DNA from: Thermodesulfobium acidiphilum | GTDB lineage: Bacteria; Thermodesulfobiota; Thermodesulfobiia; Thermodesulfobiales; Thermodesulfobiaceae | Direction: 5' to 3' | DNA length: 64,000 nt | NCBI RefSeq assembly: GCF_003057965.1 | Contig: NZ_CP020921.1 | Coordinates: 817,001-881,000, forward strand | Shown: positions 3,067 through 13,004 of the stretch, in pieces | How positions within the stretch are numbered: position 1 is the stretch's first letter | How the letters are laid out: every line of letters starts with the position of its first letter | The notes under the pieces: model-generated | What the model was told of the DNA's origin: nothing | The model's database searches: none | Seen by the model: the letters and a program-made list of their open reading frames with translations, nothing else | Program-made: the position numbers and the translations under genes

Positions 3067-3834
3067 TTAAAAAGATATTATTACTCCTTGTCTTCCGGTA
3101 ACTTTATCTCTGCGATATGAAAAGAAAAGGTCATCTCTTTCGTAGGTACAAAGTTTTAAAGAACAAATATCAAAAACGTCATATTTTCTAAATATATGTT
3201 CAATTCCACCTGCTATATCGATAAAATACTTTTCTTGATATTTTTTTACGTGGAAGGAGAGATCTTCATGGGCTTCAAATGATTCTGCAATATCTTTATC
3301 AACTTCAAGATGTTTCCACGATATTCCTGGTCCGATCGAGACAATAAGATTTTTAGGTTTAATTCTTCCAAATTTTATTATGTCAAAAAAAGATTCTATT
3401 ATGCCTTTATATAAACCTCTCCAACCAATGTGAAGTACTGCGATAAAACTTTTCCTCTTTTCTGTGATGAGAACAGGATAGCAGTCGGCTGTTCTTATAA
3501 AGAGTGGCAAATTACTTTTTGAAGTTATTAAACCATCTGCTTTTTTTATAATTCCTGCACTAGAAACTTGTACAACATTGAACGAGTGAATTTGCTCTGC
3601 CTCACACCAACTTGTTTCAACCTGTGTTTGAGAACTAAATATTTTGCGATTTTTGATAACATTTTCAGGCAGATCACCTGTTTGAAAAGATAAGTTCAAA
3701 CTATCGTATGGCTTTTTGCTTACTCCGTTTAATCTAGTTGAAAAGCCATGCTTTATTCCCAGGTGTAAAAATCTTTCATCCTGTATTATTGATTGAGAAT
3801 TGAAAAAAAAAGGATAATTTAGTTTTTCACTCAT
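3067..3834 (-). CDS. pgeF: PgeF/YfiH-type purine nucleoside phosphorylase-like (laccase domain) protein
   Basis: Member of the multicopper polyphenol oxidase/YfiH family (255 aa). Members act as peptidoglycan-editing factors and as zinc-dependent purine nucleoside enzymes; the exact role here is not decided by sequence. The metal ligands are visible: His83 (QIHSFNV), Cys118 (IRTADCYPVLI) and His135 (LHIGWRG). The C-terminal FFSYRRD...TGRQG motif is present. It is the last gene of the minus-strand operon. Its ATG overlaps the TGA of recN (ATGA), so translation is probably coupled. Confidence 0.92.
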   Translation of the reverse strand: MSEKLNYPFFFNSQSIIQDERFLHLGIKHGFSTRLNGVSKKPYDSLNLSFQTGDLPENVIKNRKIFSSQTQVETSWCEAEQIHSFNVVQVSSAGIIKKADGLITSKSNLPLFIRTADCYPVLITEKRKSFIAVLHIGWRGLYKGIIESFFDIIKFGRIKPKNLIVSIGPGISWKHLEVDKDIAESFEAHEDLSFHVKKYQEKYFIDIAGGIEHIFRKYDVFDICSLKLCTYERDDLFFSYRRDKVTGRQGVIISF

Positions 3835-5516
3835 TTTAAAAGCTCCTTTGCGTGTTTTAGACCATATTCGCTAACATTTCCAGATAGCATTCTTGAAAGT
3901 TCTTCGAGTCTGTCGTCTTTATGTAATTCTTTTACTATTACTCGAGTAATATTATTTTTTTGCTCTTTTATAATTTTATAATGTAAATCTGCACATGCTG
4001 CAACATTTGCTTGATGTGTAATTATAAATATTTGATTGAATTTTGACAATTCTATTAACTTTTCTCTCAATTTAACAGCAGCAAAACCACCTATACCAAC
4101 ATCTATTTCGTCAAAGATAAAGGCTTTAAAATTTTTATCCTTTTCGTTTTTTAATAATTCAAGAGCGATCACAATCCTTGAAAGCTCACCTCCTGAAGCT
4201 ACTTTGTTGAGCGTTTCAAGAGGTATTTCTGGGTTTGCACTAAAGTAAAATTCAATTTCTTCTGCACCATATTTTGAAAAAAACTTGTCATTTATCTTTA
4301 TTTCGCTTGAGGGTTCGATAAAAATTGCCATAAATTTTGCATTAGGAATATCAAGGTCTTTTAATTGATTTTCAACCATGTGTGAGAAAATTTCAATATT
4401 TTTAAATCTTTTCTCACTAAGTTCACTTGATAATTTTAGGATTTCTTTTTTAGAATTTTCTAGTTTGATTTCTAATAATTCCTTCTCTCTTTCTAAATCT
4501 AAAATTTTATTTATTTCTGATTCAATATTATTTCTTGCCTCTTCTATTTGTGATATTTCTTGAAGTCTTAAGATTCTTCTAATTTTCTCTGCTGAAGATA
4601 GCCTATCATGTATATATGTAAGTCTGTTTGTAAAGTCTGGCATCTTTTGAATTCTTGCCTCTACTTGTTCGCAAAAATTTTCATATGAGGATTTGAAATT
4701 TGTAAAAGAATTTAATAAATCATCAATTTCTTCATATTTTGATAGTTTCTTTATCTCAATTAATACTGAAGACATATAGTCAGAAAAGCTTGATGGATAC
4801 GAAATGATTTCCAAGATCTTTTGGAGTCCTTCGTTTATTAATTCATATTCTTCAAGACTATTTTTTTCTTGTATTAACTCGGCAATTTCTCCAGGATAAA
4901 AATTTTCCTTTTCAATTATTTTTAAAAGATCTTGTAAAACCTCTTTTCTATTTTTTAGTTCATCTAAATTTGAATTTATTTTTGAAAGTTTTTTTGATAA
5001 AGTTTTATAGTTTTCAAAAGATTTTTCATATAACTTTCTCAACAAAGTAGTATCTGAAAAGGAATCAAATATTTCATTTTGATAAGACTTTTTGAGAACC
5101 GACTGATTTGAATGTTGACCCGTTAATTCAACAAATTCAAGAATGGATTTAATTGTTTTTAGATTTGACACTTTATCATTAACATAAAAGGTACTCTTAC
5201 CATTTTGGTTTGTAATTTTTGTTATTTTAATATCTTTTTGTTTTATTTCATCTGACTCATTTTTATAAAATCCTGTAATTTCTAAGACTATAGTTGAAGG
5301 ACTGTCATTTTTTTTGGGTATAAATACAATTTTTTCTCCCAACAAAGAGGCTATTGCTCCAGTTATCAAAGATTTCCCTGCACCTGTTTCTCCAGTTAAT
5401 GCACTTATTTTTCGGCTAAACTTAATTTTAATGTTGTCAATTATTATAGTGTTATCAATTATCAATCTTTTAATTATTCCTGAAGTAAAATTTAGATCTA
5501 ATATTTCATTTTGCAT
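3831..5516 (-). CDS. recN: DNA repair protein RecN
   Basis: SMC-like ATPase that holds DNA ends during double-strand break repair. The 561 residues have Walker A GETGAGKSL at 42-50, a central coiled coil, the ABC signature VASGGELSRI near 440 and Walker B FIFDEIDVGIGG near 465, then ITHQANVAACAD. The length matches the family (about 550). ATG start at 5516 with CGAGG eight bases upstream. The N-terminus carries about ten extra residues before the usual beginning of the ATPase fold. It lies downstream of nadK in the smc-led operon. Confidence 0.96.
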   Translation of the reverse strand: MQNEILDLNFTSGIIKRLIIDNTIIIDNIKIKFSRKISALTGETGAGKSLITGAIASLLGEKIVFIPKKNDSPSTIVLEITGFYKNESDEIKQKDIKITKITNQNGKSTFYVNDKVSNLKTIKSILEFVELTGQHSNQSVLKKSYQNEIFDSFSDTTLLRKLYEKSFENYKTLSKKLSKINSNLDELKNRKEVLQDLLKIIEKENFYPGEIAELIQEKNSLEEYELINEGLQKILEIISYPSSFSDYMSSVLIEIKKLSKYEEIDDLLNSFTNFKSSYENFCEQVEARIQKMPDFTNRLTYIHDRLSSAEKIRRILRLQEISQIEEARNNIESEINKILDLEREKELLEIKLENSKKEILKLSSELSEKRFKNIEIFSHMVENQLKDLDIPNAKFMAIFIEPSSEIKINDKFFSKYGAEEIEFYFSANPEIPLETLNKVASGGELSRIVIALELLKNEKDKNFKAFIFDEIDVGIGGFAAVKLREKLIELSKFNQIFIITHQANVAACADLHYKIIKEQKNNITRVIVKELHKDDRLEELSRMLSGNVSEYGLKHAKELLK

Positions 5517-8303: not shown

Positions 8304-8756
8304 TTAATATTTCATAAGTATCAAACTAACAAGTATCCCCAAAAAACAACCAGCAATTACTTCAACAGGGGTGTGCCCAATAAGTTCTCTAAGATGCTCT
8401 TCTCTAAAGTAATATTTGTGACTAAGTTCATTTATTATTTTATTTAAAACTTTTGCTTGTTTTCCAGCTGCCTGTCTTACACCAGCGGCATCGTACATTA
8501 CAATAAAGGCAAAGATTATAGTGACAGCAAATAATGAACTATTTAAACCCTCTTTGATGCCTATTACGGTAGCCAATGAACTAACAAGTGCGCTGTGAGA
8601 AGACGGCATGCCACCAGCTTCAGTGAGGTGTCTTAAATTGATTTTATGATTTTTCCTCCAATAATAAAACATCTTTAAAATCTGAGCTATAAGGCTTGCT
8701 GTGAATGGTATCCATATTAATTTATTTGCTAGAAATTCATTCAAATAATTCTCCAT
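8304..8756 (-). CDS. Divergent PAP2 family membrane protein (YuiD/DUF212)
   Basis: A 150-residue integral membrane protein of the divergent PAP2 (acid phosphatase/vanadium haloperoxidase-related) family. It has GGMPSSHSALVSSLAT (residues about 48-63), the family hallmark, then DAAGVRQAAGKQA and a closing GHTPVEVIAGC. Several hydrophobic helices span the chain. In other bacteria such genes also lie near isoprenoid genes; a prenyl-phosphate phosphatase role is possible but is inference. The 5' end overlaps the polyprenyl synthase 3' end by 20 bases, indicating coupling. Confidence 0.9.
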   Translation of the reverse strand: MENYLNEFLANKLIWIPFTASLIAQILKMFYYWRKNHKINLRHLTEAGGMPSSHSALVSSLATVIGIKEGLNSSLFAVTIIFAFIVMYDAAGVRQAAGKQAKVLNKIINELSHKYYFREEHLRELIGHTPVEVIAGCFLGILVSLILMKY

Positions 8757-9594
8757 TAAAACCTAATTTATTAATTAATAGCCACTTGTACCTTTTAAAA
8801 AACTCAACATCAAAGTTTTCTTTCATCTTTAATATTATAGAATTAATAAGCTGAGTTTTTAATCTATTTATAGTTTCTTGACTGGCATATTTAAATATAT
8901 TTGCTTTTTCTCCGCTATCCTTATCTTTCTCATCGTCAAATATTTGAAAGAGCAAACCAATATTTTTTCCTATCTCTTCAAGATTTATTATTTGTTTGTC
9001 TTCTAATTGCCCAATAACGCCGCCCATCATAAAGCTTGCTTCAAATAAAGCTCCTGTTTTTAGAGCCATTATATTATAAATTTGTTCAAAGTTTTCTATA
9101 TTTGATATATCTAAAATTTGTCCTCCAATCATACCTTTAACTCCAGCTTTGTCAGATAAGATCCTAATTAGTTTGATTGCTAAATCACTATTTTCTATAT
9201 TTGAAAGTATATTAAATGGCATTATTTGGAGTGCATCTCCTGTTAATAAAGCAAGGCCTTCTCCGTATTTCTTATGTAATGTTAATTTGCCTCGTCTGAA
9301 GTCATCATTATCTATAGCTGGAAGGTCATCATGTATAAGAGAAGCACAATGCATCAACTCTATGGCTAAAATACTTTCTTTAAGACCGAGCACATTATCG
9401 TAATTTAATTTTGGTATAACGTTGATCAGAAAAATAGGCCTTATTCTTTTACCGCCACTCAGGATGCTATATTTTATTAATTCTTTAGTTTTATCGGGAA
9501 TTTCTTCTAACTTTGCTAAAAAATTGCTTATAACATTGTCAATAAAATCGATCTGTTTTTGAAAGATTTTTTCTATCTTTTCGTTGTAATACAG
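8737..9594 (-). CDS. Polyprenyl diphosphate synthase (farnesyl/geranylgeranyl type), CTG start
   Basis: Head-to-tail prenyltransferase building short-chain prenyl diphosphates. From a CTG at 9592-9594 the protein has 285 residues, the normal family length. It includes the N-terminal LSGGKRIRPIF motif, the first Asp-rich motif DDLPAIDND and the second FDDEKDKDSG. GGAGGGAG (9602-9609) lies 7 bases upstream of the CTG. No ATG, GTG or TTG occurs in frame until GTG at 9393, which would delete the GGKRxRP substrate-binding motif. The gene start overlaps the 3' end of smc by 22 bases. The exact product chain length cannot be read from sequence. Confidence 0.93.
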   Translation of the reverse strand: MYYNEKIEKIFQKQIDFIDNVISNFLAKLEEIPDKTKELIKYSILSGGKRIRPIFLINVIPKLNYDNVLGLKESILAIELMHCASLIHDDLPAIDNDDFRRGKLTLHKKYGEGLALLTGDALQIMPFNILSNIENSDLAIKLIRILSDKAGVKGMIGGQILDISNIENFEQIYNIMALKTGALFEASFMMGGVIGQLEDKQIINLEEIGKNIGLLFQIFDDEKDKDSGEKANIFKYASQETINRLKTQLINSIILKMKENFDVEFFKRYKWLLINKLGFNGELFE

Positions 9595-12500
9595 CTTATT
9601 TCTCCCTCCATATTTTTTGAAATACCAATCAAATTGTCAGCTGCTTCCATTGTAATTCGTTGATGAGTAACTACGATTAACTGTTTTTTTTCTTTTAAAA
9701 TATTTAACAAGTTTACAAACCTTGCAAGGTTTGCTTCATCTAATGATGCATCTACTTCATCAAAATAACAAAAAGGTGTTTGATTATTTTCCATCAGAGA
9801 CACATAAAGTAAAATTGAAATCATTGCTCTTTCTCCACCGGACAACATGTTCATGTTTAAAAACTTTCTTCCGGGTATTTTTATCTCCAAAAATATGCCA
9901 TTTGTTATGGGATTTTTGGTAGATACTAATGAGGCATTTCCATTGAAGATCTCTTTAAAGTAAGATCCCAATTTTTCATTTATTTTTTGCACTGAATTGA
10001 TAAGTTCATTATTTACATGGCTATCCAATGATTTTATAGTTAAATTTGATTCTTTAAGAATTTCTTTAATACTTTTTATTTTTGTTTCCTGTTCAGCAAT
10101 TTCTTCTTTTAGCTGTTCATAATTTTCTTTAACTTTAAAATTTATTGGTCCTAATTCATCTCTTTGTTTTAAAAGTGTGCTAAAGGTACTTTGGAGCTCT
10201 TCTGTTGAGTAATCTTTATAGTTTTTATTTTTAAACATTTCTATATTTGTATTGTTAATATTTTTTAAAAATTCATTATTATTTATTAACTCTTCTATTT
10301 TCACATTTAATGATTGCATTTTATTATCAATTTCAAAAACCTTTTTTAAAAGTTCAGATTCCTTTTGTGCTAACCTACTAGATTCTACTACAAAATTCGT
10401 TTCCTGATATCTGATTTGTTGTTCTCTTAAGAGTTTGATCTCTTTTTCAAAAAATATTTTACGGTTTAAAGATTCTTCTTTAGATTTTTTCTTCTTTTGA
10501 AATTCATCTTTTAAAGTGTATATTTCTTTATTTATTTCTTTTACTTTATTTTCTAAGTCCTCTAGTTCTGCATTAAGTGTAGTAATCTTCTTTTCATTAG
10601 TTGAGATTCTTTCATTTATTTTACTAAGTTCAAAAACTATTTGGAAATTTTCTCTTAAATCGTATAAATCTTTATCTAATTGAGAAAAGGATGTTTTAGT
10701 ACTATTTAAGTTAGATATCGTAATTTCTAATGACTTGATTTCTTTTTCTAATCTTTCTTTTTCTCGTAAGATAATATTTATTTGAGCATTAAGTGAATTT
10801 TGTTCAAGAACTAACTTTTGGATATTTTCCTTTAATTTTTGAAGTTTTAAGTTTAATCCTTCTGTTGAAATTTTTAATTCTTTATATTCAATTAAGTTTG
10901 CTGGTTTTTTAATATTTTTTTCTAAAAGTTGTATTTGACCATTTGTTGAAAAAATTTCTCCATCCAAAGTTACTAGTCTAAACTTCCAAAACGATTCGTT
11001 ATTTCTTAAATTTATTGCCTCTTCAAAAGAATTTAATAAGAGAGTATTACCAATAAGATTATAAAAGAGTTTTGTTAATTTACTATCAAAATTAATTAGT
11101 TCAATTAGTCGTTTTGAATTATATTTTTTTAAGATTTCTTCTTGAATAGTATGATGGAAAACATTTGGTACAAGATCTAGAACGAAAACGTTTAAATTTT
11201 TATTTATTTTCATTGCAGCGTTCTTCAGATTGTTCAATTCGCTTTTGCTTTGCAAAACTAAAGATCTTTTAAAACCGCCTAGCGCTACACTTACTGCAAT
11301 ATTATATCTTTCTTCTGTATTATATAAATCTTCGAGAAAACCTAAAATGCCACTTACTTTAGTTGTTAAATAATTAATAAGTTCAGCTTTTTCGTTTAAT
11401 CTTTTTTCTTCAAATATTTGATCTTTTTCTAATGTTTTACTTATATTTTTTAGTTTCATAACATTACTATTAAATTGTTCTTCTAAAATTGAAAGTTCCC
11501 TTTGTTTTTCGCATAATTTAGTTGATATCTCTTTTAACGCAGTGTTATTAAGGCTTAGTTCATTAGTGAAGTGATTGAGAGTTATTTTTTTAGACTCAAG
11601 TTCTTTCAATAATGAGTTATTTTTTTCAATTTCAGAAATATTTTTTTCGAAAATATTAAGTAGTTGTAAAATTTCATTAGGTTCTTTTTCTTTAAGCATA
11701 TCTGGTAAAAGGTCTTTTAAATTTTTTAATTTTTGAACGTTTTCTGAATTAATTAAGTTTATTGTTTTTATTTTATCTTTTTTTGAATTGATATTTTTAA
11801 TGGTTAAATCGAGTTTTGATTCAAGCAGTTTAATCTGACCATCTAATCTTTCCAGAGAAATTTCGTTTTCATGTATTTCTTCGTTAATTCTTTCTAAAAT
11901 AGAATTTTTTGCATTCATTTCACTTTCAATATTTTTATTTAGTTCTTTAAATTTTAAATACTTATCTTCAACTTCTTTTTTATAACTTAATAATTTTGCA
12001 TACTCTCTCTTAATATCTATTTGTTCTTTTTCAGTATTTAACCTTTTCTTTATTAATTCATCGTATTCTCTAAGTACTAACTCTTTTCTTAATAAATCGA
12101 TTTTGTTAGAAATTTCAATGTAAATGTTGTATATCTTTAAATCTTTGTAAAGAATTTCTAGTTTTGATTTGTTTTTTTTCAATTCTGTATTGAATGTTTC
12201 AATTTGTTCTTCCTTTTCTAAAATTTTTGATTCTAATTCAGCTTTTTCTGCTTTATAGTTTCCATATCCTAAAGATTCTAAAAATATCTGACAAAGTTGA
12301 TCAGAATTTAAGTTTAAAATTTTGTCAACTGTACCTTGATCTATAATTAGAAAAAGAGTTGAACCAAGACCAAATGGTCTAAGTATTTCTGTCATTTGTT
12401 TTTTTTGGACTTCTACATTGTTTATATAGTAGCTATTAATTCCGCCTCTTGACATGTATCTTTTTATGTTTAGCTCAGTATTGTTTTTTTCTAATTCATT

Positions 12501-12752
12501 TAAAAAGTTTATTTCAACTTCACAATAATTTACAGGTTTAAAATTTTTGTATCCTGAAAACAACAGCTCAATCGATGAATCTGCTCTGATTGAAGAGATT
12601 CTACCACCAAGTACCCATTTTATGCTTTCTCCAATATTGCTTTTACCAGAACCATTTGGGCCTATTATTACATTTAATTTTTTGTCAAATTCAAATATAA
12701 ATTCTTTATAAAAGCTTTTAAAACCGAATATTCTTAAATTTTGAAGATAAAT
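9573..12752 (-). CDS. smc: Chromosome segregation protein SMC, ATT start
   Basis: Chromosome condensation ATPase. From the ATT at 12750-12752 the protein has 1059 residues, somewhat short for SMC (about 1170). It starts YLQNLRIFGFKSF, the classic SMC N-terminus, with Walker A GPNGSGKSNI at residues 31-40. Two long coiled coils flank a hinge (about 460-600). LSGGERAMISI lies near 970 and Walker B CYFDEVDASLDEAN follows. GGAGG lies 6 bases before the ATT. A TAA stop sits upstream in frame with no standard start between. The first standard codon (TTG at 12563) comes after Walker A and would give a dead ATPase. It heads the minus-strand operon. Confidence 0.94.
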   Translation of the reverse strand: MYLQNLRIFGFKSFYKEFIFEFDKKLNVIIGPNGSGKSNIGESIKWVLGGRISSIRADSSIELLFSGYKNFKPVNYCEVEINFLNELEKNNTELNIKRYMSRGGINSYYINNVEVQKKQMTEILRPFGLGSTLFLIIDQGTVDKILNLNSDQLCQIFLESLGYGNYKAEKAELESKILEKEEQIETFNTELKKNKSKLEILYKDLKIYNIYIEISNKIDLLRKELVLREYDELIKKRLNTEKEQIDIKREYAKLLSYKKEVEDKYLKFKELNKNIESEMNAKNSILERINEEIHENEISLERLDGQIKLLESKLDLTIKNINSKKDKIKTINLINSENVQKLKNLKDLLPDMLKEKEPNEILQLLNIFEKNISEIEKNNSLLKELESKKITLNHFTNELSLNNTALKEISTKLCEKQRELSILEEQFNSNVMKLKNISKTLEKDQIFEEKRLNEKAELINYLTTKVSGILGFLEDLYNTEERYNIAVSVALGGFKRSLVLQSKSELNNLKNAAMKINKNLNVFVLDLVPNVFHHTIQEEILKKYNSKRLIELINFDSKLTKLFYNLIGNTLLLNSFEEAINLRNNESFWKFRLVTLDGEIFSTNGQIQLLEKNIKKPANLIEYKELKISTEGLNLKLQKLKENIQKLVLEQNSLNAQINIILREKERLEKEIKSLEITISNLNSTKTSFSQLDKDLYDLRENFQIVFELSKINERISTNEKKITTLNAELEDLENKVKEINKEIYTLKDEFQKKKKSKEESLNRKIFFEKEIKLLREQQIRYQETNFVVESSRLAQKESELLKKVFEIDNKMQSLNVKIEELINNNEFLKNINNTNIEMFKNKNYKDYSTEELQSTFSTLLKQRDELGPINFKVKENYEQLKEEIAEQETKIKSIKEILKESNLTIKSLDSHVNNELINSVQKINEKLGSYFKEIFNGNASLVSTKNPITNGIFLEIKIPGRKFLNMNMLSGGERAMISILLYVSLMENNQTPFCYFDEVDASLDEANLARFVNLLNILKEKKQLIVVTHQRITMEAADNLIGISKNMEGEISCITTKR

Positions 12753-12821
12753 TTTTTTCCTCCAAAATTATATGTTTTGATATAATGAAATATAATGATA
12801 ACATATAAATGAGGTATATAT
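12753..12821. promoter_or_regulatory. Divergent promoter region between smc and ferredoxin genes
   Basis: A 69-base gap separates the divergent smc and ferredoxin genes. It holds two TATAAT hexamers on the plus strand at 12781-12786 and 12791-12796, suitable as -10 elements for the ferredoxin operon. No clear -35 element was identified. The smc ribosome binding site (TGGAGG, minus strand) lies at its left edge. Confidence 0.4.
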
Positions 12822-13004
12822 TTGAACGTAAAAATCAATTTTAAATCTTATATATGTGTTGGTTGTGATTCATGTGTTTTAATGTGCCCTGTTAGCGCAA
12901 TAAGCCTAGTAAATTTTAAAGTTTTTTTTGATTATAGTAAATGTATAAAATGCAAATTTTGTGAATTTGTTTGCCCTATGGGCGCCATAGAAATTGAAGA
13001 TTAA
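12822..13004 (+). CDS. Small 2[4Fe-4S] ferredoxin-like protein
   Basis: A 60-residue protein with two four-cysteine motifs: CVGCDSCVLMCP and CIKCKFCEFVCP. This is the bacterial two-cluster ferredoxin pattern, a low-potential cytoplasmic electron carrier. TTG start at 12822 with GAGG seven bases upstream. A second ferredoxin follows 25 bases later, so the two are probably cotranscribed. The partner enzymes are not identifiable from this location. Confidence 0.88.
   Translation: MNVKINFKSYICVGCDSCVLMCPVSAISLVNFKVFFDYSKCIKCKFCEFVCPMGAIEIED

Follow-up and report, generated by a model that had tools for sequence, protein, structure and literature searches.

Start region of smc in Thermodesulfobium

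We analyzed a stretch of 64,000 nucleotides (the window) from the genome of Thermodesulfobium acidiphilum, a single contig of 1,774,794 bases (1.77 Mb) referred to here as G000, and compared it with congeneric genomes. The congeneric set comprised four genomes (G000-G003), two of which are mutually close and two of which are one-contig assemblies. The window carries the gene smc on its minus strand, with an ATT codon in the place of the start codon. The features of the gene and its start region are the following, in window coordinates:

9573..12752, minus strand: smc, 1059 amino acids counted from ATT, with an SMC_N head containing Walker A, a hinge, the LSGGE signature and the Walker B sequence FDEVDASLD
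12561..12563, minus strand: TTG, the first canonical codon in the smc frame and codon 64 of that frame
12636..12662, minus strand: Walker A motif GPNGSGKSN of SMC, which is lost if the TTG is the start
12750..12752, minus strand: ATT, the proposed smc start codon, kept in G001, G002 and G003; ATG or GTG stands at the aligned column in other bacteria
12759..12763, minus strand: Shine-Dalgarno (SD) sequence GGAGG of smc, 6 nt before ATT, with equal spacing in all four congeneric genomes
12768..12770, minus strand: in-frame stop codon TAA upstream of the smc start, present in G000 and G001 and absent from G002 and G003

Read along the minus strand, the leader consists of TAA (12770-12768), TTT TGG AGG AAA AAA and ATT (12752-12750), and the codons after ATT are TAT CTT CAA AAT TTA AGA ATA TTC GGT TTT AAA AGC TTT. 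With an initiator methionine assumed, the N-terminus of SMC is (M)YLQNLRIFGFKSF. The earliest in-frame ATG, GTG or TTG is the TTG at 12563, which lies 3' of the Walker A loop, and the frame is open from there on to the stop at 9573. The original prediction had described a frame from ATT 12752 that yields the SMC N-terminus and GPNGSGKSN with GGAGG six bases upstream, and every sequence detail of this description was confirmed. It had also placed the first TTG after the nucleotide-binding loop, as is the case (Walker A at 12662-12636), and an in-frame TAA just 5' of the start, which is correct for T. acidiphilum with the qualification that two of its relatives lack it.

The encoded protein matched the Pfam families SMC_N (137 bits) and SMC_hinge (48 bits), both above the cut-off. 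Its best NCBIfam model was TIGR02168 (SMC_prok_B), with a score of 447 bits that is below the curated cut-off of 567, and position 1 of this profile aligns to residue 2 of SMC started at ATT. The head with Walker A, the hinge, the LSGGE signature and Walker B by which a bacterial SMC is recognized are present in one chain.

A short divergent region (window 12764-12824) lies between smc and a gene for a 4Fe-4S ferredoxin (12822-13004, plus strand, TTG start). This intergenic region hardly differs between species that share only 63% identity in SMC, and it contains a spaced inverted repeat, TTATATGTT / AACATATAA.

A single smc gene and its partners

A second full-length smc elsewhere in the genome had been named beforehand as an observation that would speak against initiation at ATT. 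When we searched the T. acidiphilum genome with the full-length SMC protein, the search returned SMC alone. The other matches to the SMC_N family in this genome are RecN (window 3831-5516) and RecF-type, SbcC and ABC-type genes. ScpB gave a clear match (138 bits). Adjoining scpB is a candidate ScpA of 185-191 amino acids, which matched the Pfam ScpA family weakly (21 bits, compared with a cut-off of 24.6), and the kleisin of Thermodesulfobium seems to be divergent.

The ATT codon and the sequence behind it are conserved

SMC of G001 is 84% identical to that of G000, and the proteins of G002 and G003 are 63% identical to it. All four genomes have ATT at the aligned smc codon and GGAGG 6 nt upstream, with variation in the bases of the spacer, and in none of them does a canonical start precede Walker A. 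In the alignable SMC proteins of other bacteria, the aligned start column is occupied by ATG or GTG. The conservation of ATT at the aligned codon with equal SD spacing in three congeneric genomes argues that its occurrence in smc is more than chance. In G002 and G003, the smc frame upstream of ATT stays open for 60 more codons, again devoid of any ATG, GTG or TTG; the region upstream of the SD contains single-base insertions and deletions between species, hence it is non-coding in the smc frame. The first canonical codon is also at another position in these two genomes (62 versus 63 codons downstream). Sequence marks of a near-cognate start are found at smc: no ATG, GTG or TTG upstream of the conserved coding sequence, a properly spaced SD, and a start codon that is conserved among relatives.

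We then counted synonymous and nonsynonymous changes in the 61-62 codons from ATT to the first canonical codon of smc. The comparison of G000 with G001 gave 15 synonymous changes and 1 nonsynonymous change (expected synonymous fraction 0.20; p = 6e-10), and the ratios were 19:11 with G002 (p = 3e-7) and 18:13 with G003 (p = 4e-6). Overall, translation of the sole smc gene very likely starts at ATT and not at ATG, a reading that the sequence evidence strongly supports.

Other probable near-cognate starts in the genus

We surveyed 403 kb of G000 against G001, asking of each canonical start whether conserved coding sequence lies 5' of it. The survey covered 349 orthologue pairs, or 345 with a stricter length filter. 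Many of the long upstream extensions turned out to belong to the ends of upstream genes, to antisense frames or to tRNA or rRNA, and were discarded. The following genes remained as candidates beside smc:

G000:C1:153333, minus strand: gene for a GmhB-like HAD phosphatase, ATT start with SD; no canonical codon appears until 53 codons downstream, past the catalytic DRDGT
G000:C1:273134, minus strand: gene for an ArgA-like GNAT acetyltransferase, ATT start after AGGAGG
Window 8737..9594, minus strand: gene for an ispA-like polyprenyl synthase that overlaps the smc stop; the probable start is CTG 9594-9592, or else ATA 9576-9574
G000:C1:56419, plus strand: lpxC, with ATC as the only plausible start before GIGIHTG; a TGA precedes this ATC by three codons in each of the four genomes

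The clear cases of a conserved ATT are the genes for the GmhB-like phosphatase and the ArgA-like acetyltransferase, with ATT in all four genomes. The N-terminus of the former is under selection (p = 4e-3 to 6e-5), and in G003 a TTG is found two codons before ATT, three bases from the SD. The N-terminus of the latter is under selection as well (p = 0.035 to 4e-3), and its start is ambiguous between two adjacent ATT codons. The ATT start of smc had originally been taken as an oddity of a single gene; this view did not hold, as the codon is genus-wide and at least two other genes appear to be ATT-started.

The ispA-like gene (CTG or ATA) and lpxC (ATC) are likely to have near-cognate starts too, with less certainty. 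The ispA-like gene has the SD GGAGGGAG (window 9609-9602), and its first canonical codon is GTG 9393, after GGKRIRP. Its CTG is kept in all four genomes, and the alternative ATA at 9576 and the smc stop overlap within ATAG. The N-terminus is fast-evolving (p = 0.02 to 0.93) and is not clearly under purifying selection in comparison with G002 and G003. lpxC has a weak SD, and the values for selection on its N-terminus range from p = 0.12 to 0.02. Separately, the start region of infC is identical in the four genomes and contains, as candidate starts, GTT and ATA behind GGAGGTGA and a GTG that overlaps the SD. The infC gene of the genus is probably also started non-canonically, at ATA or GTT, with the overlapping GTG as the alternative.

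Apparent near-cognate starts were found in 5 of the 345 pairs here and in none of 167 pairs in one control genus. We claim no raised rate of such starts because this difference is not significant (p = 0.18); a second control genome pair contributed only 22 pairs. Among 271 SD-supported canonical starts in the same 403 kb, 29% were TTG and 14% were GTG.

Proposed initiation at AUU

Our preferred reading, to which we give a probability of about 0.85, is that the ordinary initiator tRNA initiates translation at the AUU at 12752, inefficiently and with sensitivity to IF3, and that this holds SMC low. The GGAGG 6 nt upstream would position the ribosome on the AUU, which the ordinary CAU tRNA-fMet would read despite mispairing at the third base of the codon. 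IF3, which is known to discriminate against start pairs mismatched at the third position (PMC10158994; PMC5472188), would then discriminate against the AUU pairing and make smc initiation inefficient, so that SMC synthesis may be low and inverse to IF3 activity, as the analogy with known systems suggests. The first residue of SMC would be methionine, and selection for low output could be the reason why ATT has been kept in smc. By the same analogy, the ATT start would probably keep SMC and the other ATT-started proteins scarce.

We searched G000 and G001 for initiator-type tRNAs by pattern and found one in each genome, with anticodon CAU and a GGG...CCC anticodon stem. Since this is the sole initiator-type tRNA found, the AUU would be read by ordinary fMet-tRNA. 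Another pattern match in G000 (GGGTTTATTACCC) was rejected as a second initiator tRNA with a different anticodon, being located inside a protein-coding region and absent from G001.

An altered IF3 was considered and set aside. Asp replaces Arg or Lys at position 116 (E. coli numbering), but this residue is uninformative, as 6 of 26 other sequences also have Glu or Asp at that site, and no residue of IF3 departs from the variation seen in other bacteria. A hairpin is predicted over the smc SD in G000 (-7.2 kcal/mol, z -1.95) and in G001 (-7.6 kcal/mol, z -1.62); as a means of hiding the SD it was rejected, since G003 gives it no support (z -0.29) and its values are not unusual next to those of ordinary genes. 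We found no known RNA family near the smc start, and the smc SD is not stronger than those of ordinary genes in this genome.

Alternative readings of the start region

The alternative that survives best accepts AUU initiation and denies it a regulatory role: start choice would be loose in this genus, and ATT would have drifted in and been tolerated. We regard this as a real possibility, if the lesser one. It agrees with the abundance of canonical starts other than ATG and with the roughly five genes in the sampled 403 kb that appear to have near-cognate starts. On the other hand, ATT is a single substitution away from ATG and yet stayed unchanged while SMC diverged to 63% identity, IF3 is unremarkable, and the matched control in one other genus gave 0 of 167 pairs, a difference that is not significant.

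Initiation elsewhere between the SD and Walker A, at a different near-cognate codon such as the ATA at codon 8, which is the nearest, or synthesis of a frameshift product from upstream, appears improbable. Such codons do occur in the smc frame, and two relatives have an open frame upstream. However, the ATA is ∼27 nt from the SD, and a start there would cost the protein its conserved YLQNLR segment, which is part of the family profile. As for a product from upstream, TAA closes the frame in two genomes, and there are insertions and deletions upstream of the SD.

Translation from the internal TTG at 12563, which is the first codon that a standard gene finder would accept, would give a shortened product of 996 amino acids and is highly improbable: the product would lack Walker A, the position of the first canonical codon differs in G002 and G003, and the 61-62 codons that would go untranslated are under purifying selection, which also contradicts the initiation at 12563 that had been put forward as a possible refutation.

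Even less probable, and rejected on both conservation and selection, is a sequencing error or a recent pseudogene in place of a true or ancestral ATG, the first suspicion for a non-canonical start on an essential-type gene and one to which the run of seven A preceding the site lends some weight, given that ATT is found in four independent genomes, two of them one-contig assemblies, at SMC identities of 84% and 63%. The 61-62 codons that follow ATT are under strong purifying selection, which argues against error, pseudogene and truncation alike and, together with the intact frame of 1059 codons, bears out the original view that smc is unlikely to be a dead copy.

Significance and comparison with known systems

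Very few bacterial genes are known to start at near-cognate codons. In E. coli, two genes start with AUU (PMC9410913), and one survey counted a single switch from AUG to AUU in 61,358 (PMC5622118). This rarity agrees in direction with the difference between Thermodesulfobium and our control genus, a comparison limited by the bias of published start annotation against non-canonical codons (PMC5472188). We found no earlier report of an AUU start in smc in the literature searched. A gene finder that accepts only ATG, GTG and TTG would annotate an SMC lacking the ATP-binding loop and a GmhB-like phosphatase lacking the DxDGT motif, and this lineage may hide further genes with near-cognate starts.

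On our preferred reading of AUU initiation, the conserved AUU on the sole smc gene suggests initiation as the step that limits SMC abundance, which would tie chromosome organization to IF3. A broader proposal, which we consider rather doubtful, is that near-cognate starts form a regular layer of control on ∼1% of genes, an IF3-sensitive set with ATT, ATC or CTG starts that includes smc, the gmhB-like and argA-like genes, lpxC and the ispA-like gene. If this were true, the set would respond jointly to the state of the translation apparatus.

IF3 control of smc is suggested by analogy with infC and sigR. As in smc, the E. coli genes infC and pcnB have a conserved AUU on a chromosomal gene (PMC9410913, PMC5472188); infC is autoregulated by IF3 and pcnB is translationally limited (PMC9410913, PMC5472188). 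Unlike infC, smc has no evident self-regulatory loop. cvfC1 (AUU) and ccpN (AUA) of Staphylococcus aureus resemble smc in having a strong SD and a non-canonical start that is conserved among related species (PMC13009471), and in minimal medium their reporters reached ∼10% of the level obtained with AUG (PMC13009471). Their starts were mapped by ribosome profiling and their SDs are extended, whereas smc has GGAGG alone and its start was read from the DNA. The GTC start of Streptomyces sigR is likewise conserved within its genus, and it is misannotated in public genomes (PMC5472188); in contrast to smc, the codon is not ATT, the product is a stress sigma factor, and repression by IF3 was demonstrated (PMC5472188), while for smc we infer it. 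The smc start appears as an addition to the known class of conserved non-canonical starts, with a possible regulatory meaning that these systems suggest.
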